Made by a program: the position numbers and the translations under genes | From: Gaiellales bacterium | GTDB lineage: Bacteria; Actinomycetota; Thermoleophilia; Gaiellales; JAICJC01 | Assembly (NCBI GenBank): GCA_036403155.1 | Contig: DASWRM010000076.1 | Span: 130,909-194,908 of the forward strand | Length of the DNA: 64,000 nucleotides | Reading direction: 5' to 3' | Shown: in pieces, positions 44,497-47,251 of the stretch | How positions within the stretch are numbered: the stretch's first letter is position 1 | How the letters are laid out: every line of letters starts with the position of its first letter | Notes under the pieces: generated by a model | Told to the model about the DNA's origin: nothing | Databases searched by the model: none | Seen by the model: the letters and a program-made list of their open reading frames with translations, nothing else

Positions 44497-45705
44497 ATGG
44501 CGGAGCTCACCGTCCTGCTCGCGCTGGCCCTGGCAGCCGCGCTCGCGGTGCTCGCTGTCCGCGAGCGCGAGCGACGGCGGGCGCTGGCCGCAGTCGGCGC
44601 CGGCGGCGACCTCGACCGAGCGGTTCGGACGCTCCTCGACGACCGCGCCGATCGCGCGTCGCTGGACGCCGCGCTGGCTCTGCGCGACGCGCTGATCGAC
44701 GCGTCGCCGACGCCGGTGATGCTGTTCGATCGGGGCGCGCGGCTGGTGCGCGCCAACGCCGCAGCCCGGGAGGCCATCACCGACCTCGAGGTGGGCGCGA
44801 CGGCGGCGGTGCAGGCGATCGCGACGGCGGTGCACGACGCGCTTGCCGGGCGTCCCCCGCGTCCGTTCGACGTGACCGTCTACGAGCCCGAGCGGCGGCG
44901 CTTCCACGCCCACCTGCGCCCCTACGCCGACCGGGAGGCGCGGTCATGCGTCGTCGTGCTGGCGGACGAGAGCGCCGAGGCCGACTATCGCGATGCGCGA
45001 CGCCTCTTCTCGGCCGGCGTGTCGCACGAGCTGCGCACGCCGCTGGCGCGCATGCTGGCGCTGATCGACACGCTCGCACTGCCGCTCACCGACCCCGAGC
45101 GTGAGGAGACGATGGATCAGATGCGCGACGAGATCGACGCGATGCGCGAGCTGATCGAGGACATGATGCTGCTGGCGCGGCTGGACGCCGAAGGGGTGGC
45201 CGGGGGCGAGCGCTGCGACGTGGAGGAGGCGGTGACGGCCTGCCTGGAGCGCCACCGCGAGGTGGCCGCCGACGCCGGGATGACGCTCGAGGGCCACGCT
45301 CCCGGCGCCCTGGCCGCCGGAGTGCCGCGGCGGCTCGTCGACGTGGTGCTGGACAACCTGGTCGGCAACGCACTCCGCCATGCCGGGGAGGGCGCGTCCG
45401 TGGAGGTGCGGGCCGGCGAGGCGGACGGCGCGGTCGAGCTGGTGGTGGCGGACACGGGCGCCGGCATCCCGGCCGAGCACGTCTCGCGCGTGTTCGAGCG
45501 CTTCCACCGCGTGGAGGGATCACGGACCGGCCCCGGCACCGGCCTCGGGCTCGCGATCGTCAAGCACATCGCCGAGGCGCACGGCGGGCGAGCCCTCATG
45601 GAGAGCGTCGAGGGCGAGGGCACCACCGTCCGCGTGCTGCTGCCCGCGCCCGCGCCGCCGCACCAGCTGCCCGCGACGGGTGCGGGCGGGCTCACGTCGG
45701 TCTAG
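44497..45705 (+). CDS. Sensor histidine kinase
   Basis: 402 residues from ATG 44497. One N-terminal membrane span (about 3-20), a PAS-like domain at about 55-155 (ALIDASPTPVMLFDRGARLV), HisKA with the phospho-acceptor in SHELRTPLARMLALI (about 174), and HATPase with N-box LVGNALRHAGEG, G1 VADTGAGIP, and GTGLGLAIVKHI. The architecture resembles PhoR of the phosphate or cell-envelope type, with the sensor domain in the cytoplasm. The response regulator lies tail to tail on the other strand, with both stop codons in one CTAG. Confidence 0.93.
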   Translation: MAELTVLLALALAAALAVLAVRERERRRALAAVGAGGDLDRAVRTLLDDRADRASLDAALALRDALIDASPTPVMLFDRGARLVRANAAAREAITDLEVGATAAVQAIATAVHDALAGRPPRPFDVTVYEPERRRFHAHLRPYADREARSCVVVLADESAEADYRDARRLFSAGVSHELRTPLARMLALIDTLALPLTDPEREETMDQMRDEIDAMRELIEDMMLLARLDAEGVAGGERCDVEEAVTACLERHREVAADAGMTLEGHAPGALAAGVPRRLVDVVLDNLVGNALRHAGEGASVEVRAGEADGAVELVVADTGAGIPAEHVSRVFERFHRVEGSRTGPGTGLGLAIVKHIAEAHGGRALMESVEGEGTTVRVLLPAPAPPHQLPATGAGGLTSV

Positions 45706-46442
45706 GCGATCGTCTCCATGCCACCGCCCGGCTGCGCTGCCGGCATGCCCTTGGGCACGGCATCGAAGCGGTAGCCGACGCCGTAGTGCGTCTGGATGTA
45801 CGTGTAGGCACCGGCGCGGCGGTCGATCTTGTCCCGGAGCTTGCGCACGCACACGTCGACTGTGCGGTCGCGGTGGCGGTGCGGGATGCCCCACACCCGC
45901 TGCTGGAGCTGGTCGCGCGTGAGGGCCCGGCCGCGCTCGCCCGCGAGGACGTAGAGCAGCCGGAACTCCGTTGGCGTGAGGCCGACGTCCTCATCCTCGA
46001 GCAGCGCGGCATGCAGGTTCGGGTCGATCCGCAGGTCGCCGGCCGCGATCGTCTCGGCGCCGGCCGCCGCGGGGCCCATGCCGGCGCGTCGCAGGACGGC
46101 CTCCACGCGGGCGACCAGCTCCCGCATGCCGAACGGCTTGGCCAGGTAGTCGTCCCCGCCGATCCCGAGCGCATGCACCTTGTCGTGCTCCGACCCGCGC
46201 GCGCTGACGATCACGATCGGCGTCTCGATGCCCTCGGCGCGAAGCGTCTCGGTGATCCGCCAGCCGTCCATGCCGGGCAGCATCAGGTCGAGGACGGCCA
46301 CGTCCGGGCGCTCGAAGCGGAGCTTGGCGATCGCGCGCTCTCCGTCCTCCGCGATCTCGACGTCCATGCCGGCACGTCGGAGGTGCGCCGCCATGGCGTT
46401 GGCGATGACGCGATCGTCCTCCGCGATCAGCACTCGGGGCAT
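45702..46442 (-). CDS. OmpR/PhoB-type response regulator
   Basis: 246 residues from ATG 46442. Receiver domain 1-120 (PRVLIAEDD acidic pair, phospho-Asp in AVLDLMLPGMDGW, Lys in DYLAKPFGMREL), then a winged helix effector (GLTPTEFRLLYVLAGERGRA, VWGIPHRHRDRTVDVCVRKL, THYGVGYRF). A longer frame up to 46577 exists but the TACGAT box 7 nt before this ATG decides the start. It is the probable partner of the adjacent kinase. Confidence 0.94.
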   Translation of the reverse strand: MPRVLIAEDDRVIANAMAAHLRRAGMDVEIAEDGERAIAKLRFERPDVAVLDLMLPGMDGWRITETLRAEGIETPIVIVSARGSEHDKVHALGIGGDDYLAKPFGMRELVARVEAVLRRAGMGPAAAGAETIAAGDLRIDPNLHAALLEDEDVGLTPTEFRLLYVLAGERGRALTRDQLQQRVWGIPHRHRDRTVDVCVRKLRDKIDRRAGAYTYIQTHYGVGYRFDAVPKGMPAAQPGGGMETIA

Positions 46443-46455: not shown

Positions 46456-46499
46456 GACCGTGCGGCCGGAGTGGCCGCGCCGCTCCCGGACCAGAGATT

Positions 46500-46601
46500 C
46501 GCCGCTCCGGCGTGCCTTTCGTCCACCAGCCGAACGGACCTTCGAGTCGCCTCTACTGTCCCTCCGTCTGGGTTCAACCTACTCGGCTGCCCTGAGCGGC
46601 G
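46500..46601 (-). ncRNA. Structured element, copy 1 of a 102-nt pair (unknown RNA or regulatory element)
   Basis: Read on the minus strand it begins CGCCGC and ends GCGGCG, which close as a stem. Inside, GGGCAGCCGAGTAGG, CGAAGG, CGTTCGGC and GGACGAAAGG are shared with copy 2, and AGCCGA can pair with TCGGCT. It lies 58 nt upstream of the response regulator start. Differences from copy 2 are not concentrated in third codon positions, which fits an RNA or DNA structure more than a peptide. No known riboswitch consensus was matched. Confidence 0.45.
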
Positions 46602-46680
46602 CAGGGAGGAAGCTAGTGACCCGGGCTTCCGTCTGCAACCGGCATGTTCGCAAATAGCGCGAAAAACGAGGAGGCCGTTG

Positions 46681-47079
46681 TCACGGCCGCCATCGCCCGA
46701 GGACGTCGCGGTCGCGCGCGTAGGTCAGGAGCTCCATCGCCCGGTCGCGCGGCAGCCAGCGCAGCTCGTCGACCTCGTCGCCGGCCTCGAACACCCCCGC
46801 GATCGCGTGCATGACGTAGTAGCGGACGGTCTTCGGCAGCGTGCGCCCCCCGCGCACGACCTCGTACTCGACGGTTCCGAGGTCGCCGGCGATCGCGCCG
46901 CGAAAGCCCGTCTCCTCGAGCACCTCGCGACGGGCCGCATCGGGGTCGGACTCACCCGGCTCATGCTTGCCCTTCGGCAGCGTCCAGTCGTCGTACTTCG
47001 GCCGGTGCACGACGGCGACCAGGCCGTCTCGCACCAGGACTGCGCCGGCGGCGCGGACGATGTCATCGCGGGGCTGCAC
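46681..47079 (-). CDS. NUDIX hydrolase
   Basis: 132 residues from GTG 47079. The Nudix box is GKHEPGESDPDAARREVLEE plus TG, at about 38-60, matching GX5EX7REUXEEXGU. It is preceded by WTLPKGKHE and followed by YYVMHAIAGVFEAGDEVDEL. This length and the DDWTLPKGK pattern fit MutT/Ap4A-type house-cleaning enzymes that hydrolyse nucleoside diphosphate derivatives. No ribosome binding site is seen. The second 102-nt structured element ends 24 nt before the start codon. Confidence 0.93.
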   Translation of the reverse strand: MQPRDDIVRAAGAVLVRDGLVAVVHRPKYDDWTLPKGKHEPGESDPDAARREVLEETGFRGAIAGDLGTVEYEVVRGGRTLPKTVRYYVMHAIAGVFEAGDEVDELRWLPRDRAMELLTYARDRDVLGRWRP

Positions 47080-47103
47080 GATGCACGGGAGAGGAAAAGG
47101 GTT

Positions 47104-47205
47104 CGCCGCCCCGGCTGACCTTTCGTCCCCCGGCCGAACGAACCTTCGGGTCTCCCCTACGACTCGTCCGCCCGGATTCGTCCTACTCGGCTGCCCTCGG
47201 CGGCG
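47104..47205 (-). ncRNA. Structured element, copy 2 of a 102-nt pair (unknown RNA or regulatory element)
   Basis: On the minus strand a 7-bp closing stem CGCCGCC/GGCGGCG brackets the same internal blocks as copy 1 (GGGCAGCCGAGTAGG, CCCGAAGG, CGTTCGGCC, GGACGAAAGG), at exactly the same total length of 102 nt. It sits directly before the NUDIX start codon, where a 5' leader would be. The minus orientation is inferred from both copies lying upstream of minus-strand genes. Confidence 0.45.
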
Positions 47206-47251
47206 CAGACACACACTACGCCCCGGACGGGCGGATTGCAAGGGCGCCGGC

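Follow-up and report, generated by a model that had tools for sequence, protein, structure and literature searches.

A preliminary description of the window analysed here, a 64,000-nt stretch of a Gaiellales genome (contig DASWRM010000076.1, positions 130,909 to 194,908), pointed to a pair of 102-nt elements upstream of a response-regulator gene and a NUDIX gene, and offered three readings of them: a new cis-regulatory RNA class, small RNAs, or an interspersed repeat with RNA-like structure. The question that this locus raises is whether the elements are RNAs at all and, if so, whether they control the genes beside them or act as transcripts in their own right. Gaiellales are little studied, and most of their known genomes were assembled from soil and water metagenomes; a literature search found no paper on Gaiellales together with riboswitches.

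Two copies of a 108-nt unit on the minus strand

The observation that opened the question was borne out on the minus strand: the two elements are equal in length, have the same closing stem and share the internal blocks named at the outset. Their position had also been given accurately, copy A lying 53 nt ahead of the response-regulator start and copy B 20 nt ahead of the NUDIX start. We redrew the unit as 108 nt (Table 1) to take account of the conserved flanking bases and the promoter that go with it. Both members of the described pair are thus real, and what had to be revised was the length and the number, the source genome having five copies in all; the three others are full-length, lie on contigs C70 (two) and C34, and are 86 to 89% identical to copy A. 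Copies A and B share 79% identity, and the likeness between them breaks off sharply at the element edges. Compared with dinucleotide shuffles, the minus strand folded with z scores of -3.1 (copy A) and -2.6 (copy B), each equalled by 1 of 200 shuffles, and the plus strand (z of -0.7 and +0.3, respectively) folded no better than shuffles. Beside copy A, the response-regulator gene on the minus strand and a histidine-kinase gene on the plus strand are convergent, with an overlap of about 4 bases at their stop codons (window positions 45702-45705), an arrangement that is unusual for a cognate pair.

Table 1. Positions of the RNA copies, their predicted control signals and neighbouring genes in the window
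Feature	Position	Strand	Basis or remark
RNA copy A	46496..46603	minus	108 nt; R1/R2 covariance model matches 126.7 / 109.5 bits; fold z -3.1
RNA copy B	47100..47207	minus	R1/R2 covariance model matches 112.1 / 96.6 bits
Predicted -35 box of copy A, TTGCAG	46633..46638	minus	Promoter alignment; 17-nt spacer to -10 box
Predicted -10 box of copy A, TAGCTT	46610..46615	minus	Promoter alignment; 6 nt before RNA nt 1
Predicted -35 box of copy B, TTGCAA	47236..47241	minus	Promoter alignment
Predicted -10 box of copy B, TAGTGT	47213..47218	minus	Promoter alignment
Putative operator of copy A, CGCTATTTGCG	46649..46659	minus	9/10 match to CGCAANTTGCG, centred at -51
Conserved TGGTCC directly 3' of copy A	46488..46493	minus	TGGWCC common 3' of copies
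Terminator-like hairpin after NUDIX gene, before copy A promoter	46673..46688	minus	Predicted from sequence; would separate two transcripts
OmpR-type response regulator downstream of copy A (context)	45702..46442	minus	Pfam Response_reg, Trans_reg_C
NUDIX hydrolase gene between copies A and B (context)	46681..47079	minus	Pfam NUDIX

A covarying rod outside the known RNA classes

Copy A is a sealed rod in which a closing stem, a central AGUA/GAA internal loop, a long helix and a tip AGUA/GAA loop lead up to a GCGA (GNRA) tetraloop. Across the family, the rod starts from a closing stem of the form UGCRCC.../...GGYG and continues with a small asymmetric loop, a CGC/GCG helix and the central loop GAGUAG/GAAAG, beyond which come a helix with a GAAG/GUGG loop, a long variable helix and an (N)GUA/GAA tip loop. 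The tip is a 3-bp stem capped by a GNRA tetraloop in 82 of 84 copies, and some members have a longer tip hairpin. We take the two (A)GUA/GAA loops to resemble the bulged-G (sarcin-ricin or loop E) module, a likeness that is resemblance only.

This fold is very strongly supported. In a model-fitted alignment of 70 matches, double changes were present in 25 of 34 pairs, and the covariation score was 0.467, compared with 0.160 for the shuffled control and 0.085 or less when the pairing was slid by 1 to 3 columns. Since this first alignment had been fitted to the model, covariation was re-tested without it: all 12 of the strongest covarying pairs in an ungapped comparison of 66 distinct 108-nt sequences were pairs of the structure, and when 35 diverse members were aligned with MAFFT, RNAalifold recovered the same rod, 21 of its 29 pairs showing compensatory double changes. 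Tip-loop positions 48 and 63 covaried in the ungapped comparison without Watson-Crick pairing, as is expected if the tip loop is a non-canonical module.

A scan of the window with Rfam 15 at the gathering threshold gave no match but a tRNA, and permissive scans yielded no relevant match for the window copies (E up to 5) and nothing relevant for eight relative loci (E up to 0.5). Together with the covariation, these results support the earlier suggestion of a structured RNA class outside the known ones. A covariance search, which the preliminary description had named as a test able to refute that suggestion, returned many loci besides this one, with abundant compensatory changes. The same description had asked whether hits would fall inside proteins in a fixed reading frame; of 81 copies, 80 overlap no called gene of at least 100 aa (a purpose-written script called the genes for the overlap and neighbour counts, with this length limit for overlap), and stop codons and the strand-specific structure also speak against coding.

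Copy number and distribution in Gaiellales

A first covariance model, built from the five copies of the source genome, was positive in 37 of 61 genomes of Gaiellales (E up to 0.01, the E-values of these covariance models being rough by construction). With a refined model, 106 of 399 Thermoleophilia genomes were positive, every one of them in Gaiellales, and a phylum sample of 396 genomes gave positives from Gaiellales only; the genomes sampled are nearly all metagenome-assembled. Carriers have one to about six copies per genome, with four to five in each of three good-quality relatives, and the RNA is present in nearly all genomes examined of Gaiellaceae (family f3). The sister family f2 was negative at the model threshold except for one weak match; three of its genomes (G005, G020 and G040) have divergent members with the same end module, and the same promoter type is visible at the divergent copies of G005. 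Exact-pattern matches in named records came from Thermoleophilia, Gaiellaceae and Gaiella, the others being labelled only Actinomycetota, Actinobacteria or Actinomycetes. Matches to the end-module pattern outside Gaiellales were few, had no internal sequence in common with the RNA family when inspected by eye, and were set aside as chance. The RNA is also present on two JAICUZ01 contigs labelled Burkholderiales (loci L168 and L173), which may reflect a mixed bin or an erroneous bin label.

Members of a second subfamily, about 105 nt long, often lie in tandem arrays. An array has two to three copies, which belong to different subfamilies and are spaced about 240 to 290 nt apart, with larger gaps in some (L079, L080, L084 and L116), and each copy in an array has its own promoter and operator.

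Predicted promoters, a putative operator and 3' ends

Upstream of almost every copy lies a sigma70-type promoter with the consensus CTTGAC(17)TAGATT. The spacer between the -35 and -10 boxes is 17 nt in 54 of 68 copies, the end of the -10 box is 6 nt from RNA position 1 in 55 of 68, and no shuffled flank reached the median promoter score of the real flanks. Because the promoter sits at a fixed distance, the 5' end of the RNA is taken as the predicted start site.

A palindromic putative operator, CGCAAWTTGCG, stands at a fixed position farther upstream in 94 of 105 copies, scored as at least 8 of the 10 specified bases of CGCAANTTGCG, compared with 4.7% of shuffled flanks. In Gaiellaceae it is centred within 2 nt of -62, and in the bacterial family of the window mostly at -53, a shift of about one helical turn; the upstream flank of copy B has no recognisable operator. 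A fixed site upstream of the -35 box at such spacing fits an activator, and one common activator presumably binds it. Coordinate comparison of the 47 exact operator sites in 16 Gaiellaceae genomes placed 28 at known RNA copies; two further sites revealed extra RNA copies, and the remaining 17 are away from the RNA, compared with about 11 expected by chance on a rough estimate. In two genomes (G009 and G006), every exact operator genome-wide is at an RNA promoter. The looser form CGCAAANTGCG is much less specific in the window's bacterial family, and a literature text search for the operator returned unrelated papers only.

Some operator sites have other neighbours. Two CGCAAATTGCG sites, in G037 and G029 (L262:1501-1640 and L265:1501-1640, plus strand), have the same promoter layout before a hairpin of about 30 to 35 nt, e.g., ACTGAACCGGCGGGCCTTCGGGTCAGTCGGTTCAGTACTTTTTT, which is possibly a second, very short co-regulated RNA. 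A gene that encodes a small Cys-rich protein, e.g., ITCDECYFRREGLCALSGNVPCPTFRA, has the same operator upstream (L252, L256 and L264, near position 1501; three genomes, two genera) and is a possible protein member of the operator regulon. Two sites in G037 (L260 and L261, near 1501) adjoin a repeated block, GTGGGTGGTGGGATGGGGTGCCCC, which resembles an MraZ-type TGGG-repeat box.

At the 3' end, a run of four or more T follows within 16 nt in 48 of 108 copies, and 9 of 108 have a separate perfect terminator hairpin. Since U-runs are weak in the window's bacterial family (four or more T in only 3 of 17 copies), termination there is uncertain. Of 70 copies, 42 have a strand-specific TGGWCC motif on their 3' side, compared with 2.3% of shuffled flanks; it sits after the U-run, usually reads TGGTCC and rarely TGGACC, and is replaced by TTTAAC in some copies. 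In the window's bacterial family, TGGTCC is better kept than the U-run. Folding of extended transcripts gave no consistent partner within the RNA for the downstream GGWCC. The promoter, operator and terminator of the RNA copies draw their support from sequence only, and we infer that the copies are transcribed.

Discussion

We consider it likely that the elements are genes of a multi-copy, stand-alone family of structured small RNAs of Gaiellales that are co-regulated and act in trans. The small-RNA reading in the preliminary description gains support from the copies' own promoters, from the 3' U-runs and terminators, and from the many copies without a same-strand gene downstream. As in sibling sRNA regulons, there are several homologous stand-alone RNA genes per genome, each with its own promoter and most with a common putative operator upstream, and some are in tandem. 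In the mechanism that we propose, the sigma70-type promoter would start each short transcript at the first base of the closing stem, and the transcript end would be set by the closing stem and U-run or by a separate hairpin. One activator bound to the operator common to most copies would cause the copies to be made together, and copy number would set the RNA dose.

The RNA would then act in trans, for which we see a high probability, by occupying a protein or ribonucleoprotein rather than by pairing with mRNAs through a seed. Protein binding is suggested by the paired ends, the GNRA tetraloop at the tip and the fact that the only strongly conserved unpaired bases are those of the purine-rich, bulged-G-like internal loops; this is the weakest step of the argument, and we regard it as plausible, if somewhat short of probable.

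Alternatively, the conserved purine-rich internal loops (GAAG, GAAAG and GGAAG) might pair with mRNAs, which would make the family trans-acting antisense siblings. Sibling sRNA regulons include the CiaR-dependent csRNAs, RsmX/Y/Z under GacA and Qrr under LuxO. The multi-copy, co-regulated layout seen here is also that of LhrC1-5 of Listeria, the copies of which are reported to depend on the LisRK two-component system (PMC4132741, PMC5880928). Sibling sRNAs, however, have exposed single-stranded seeds or repeated loop motifs, whereas the Gaiellales RNA has no evident seed and no long single-stranded stretch that could serve as one: both ends are paired, the tip is a GNRA loop, and two of the internal loops are shaped as non-canonical modules, in an RNA confined to one order. 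Because a sealed rod offers no seed, protein binding is more likely than antisense action, which we judge rather unlikely.

A cis leader (riboswitch or attenuator), in which the closing stem would be a terminator controlled by a ligand or protein at the internal loops and would thereby tune the downstream gene, is an improbable general explanation. The RNA does have the compact fold, the conserved internal-loop bases and the closing stem before a U-run that mark riboswitches and other cis-acting RNAs, with a U-run after that stem in about half of the copies. The downstream gene is on the same strand at 54 of 81 copies, at distances of 20 to 62 nt in the window and in relatives L060 and L063, and at one locus in Gaiellaceae a gene for a small membrane protein has been retained on the downstream side. 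At 27 of 81 copies, however, including 3 of the 5 in the source genome, the downstream gene is convergent, which makes a general cis role unlikely and leaves the cis-regulatory class first envisaged unsupported as a general function. The downstream genes are also mutually unrelated and have no common function; the genes neighbouring the copies are NUDIX and response-regulator genes in the window's bacterial family and, in Gaiellaceae, genes for undecaprenyl-diphosphatase-like and small membrane proteins or for MFS transporters (names other than those of NUDIX and two-component genes were assigned by reading the sequences). Promoters at a fixed distance from each copy, tandem arrays in which every one of two to three copies has its own promoter and operator, and the lack of an Rfam riboswitch match further set the family apart from cis-acting leaders. 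Copy B, so close to the NUDIX start, could nonetheless act in cis on its neighbour. At an orthologous Gaiellaceae locus (L074, L083, L085, L092, L096-L098, L102, L104 and L105), the RNA is flanked on one side by an undecaprenyl-diphosphatase-like gene and on the other by one encoding a membrane protein of about 60 to 85 aa (PSID.GV..F.W), possibly a conserved family that is still uncharacterised.

It is very unlikely that the family is a CsrA sponge of the CsrB/RsmY kind. GGA does occur in a conserved loop (GUGGACGAAAG), and like CsrB, RsmY and RsmZ, the RNA has several co-regulated copies and would presumably occupy a protein. Unlike them, it has no repeated GGA hairpins, and a Pfam search largely refuted the idea: of 31 genomes, 7 have CsrA, which the source genome and many RNA-positive ones lack, and RNA-positive G000, G001, G004, G009, G021, G023 and G025 gave no CsrA match where positive controls were detected. 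With 6S RNA (RF00013), the family has in common a stand-alone, rod-like form, paired ends and conserved internal loops, but 6S RNA is about 187 nt long with a large central bubble, whereas the Gaiellales RNA is 108 nt, multi-copy and without such a bubble; Rfam scans gave no RF00013 match for the elements, and separate 6S-like matches lie elsewhere in relatives, in Gaiellaceae genomes that bear this RNA. A Y RNA identity was rejected as well, the TROVE (Ro60) protein being present in 1 of 31 genomes, which is not the source genome, and missing from many that have the RNA.

A DNA repeat, mobile or dispersed, whose likeness to a structured RNA is incidental would account for several copies per genome, some in tandem 240 to 290 nt apart, but is hardly credible given compensatory changes that keep the RNA fold on one strand only, fixed spacing of promoter, operator and RNA, orthologous places conserved within families and no match in viral contigs, phages or plasmids; no insertion hallmarks were noticed at the copies (a non-systematic look as to target-site duplications), and the interspersed repeat of the preliminary description is unsupported as a mobile element.

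In sum, the family of stand-alone sibling RNAs, with its structure, copy number and distribution documented here, is previously uncatalogued and has no Rfam match, and its copies, mostly under the same DNA control site, probably constitute one regulatory circuit. Tentatively, the RNA might titrate a global RNA-binding protein, or the machinery of transcription or translation, or be its allosteric partner; with a largely dedicated activator, it would in that sense be a counterpart of CsrB or 6S RNA with a new architecture. The combination of two bulged-G-like loops with a GNRA cap in a single rod suggests a new mode of RNA-protein recognition. That almost all the Gaiellaceae genomes examined have kept the RNA, with between one and about six co-regulated copies, implies a hitherto undescribed central regulatory circuit. 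The predicted fold, start sites and operator are testable, and identifying the operator-binding and RNA-binding proteins would open the regulation of the whole order to study.
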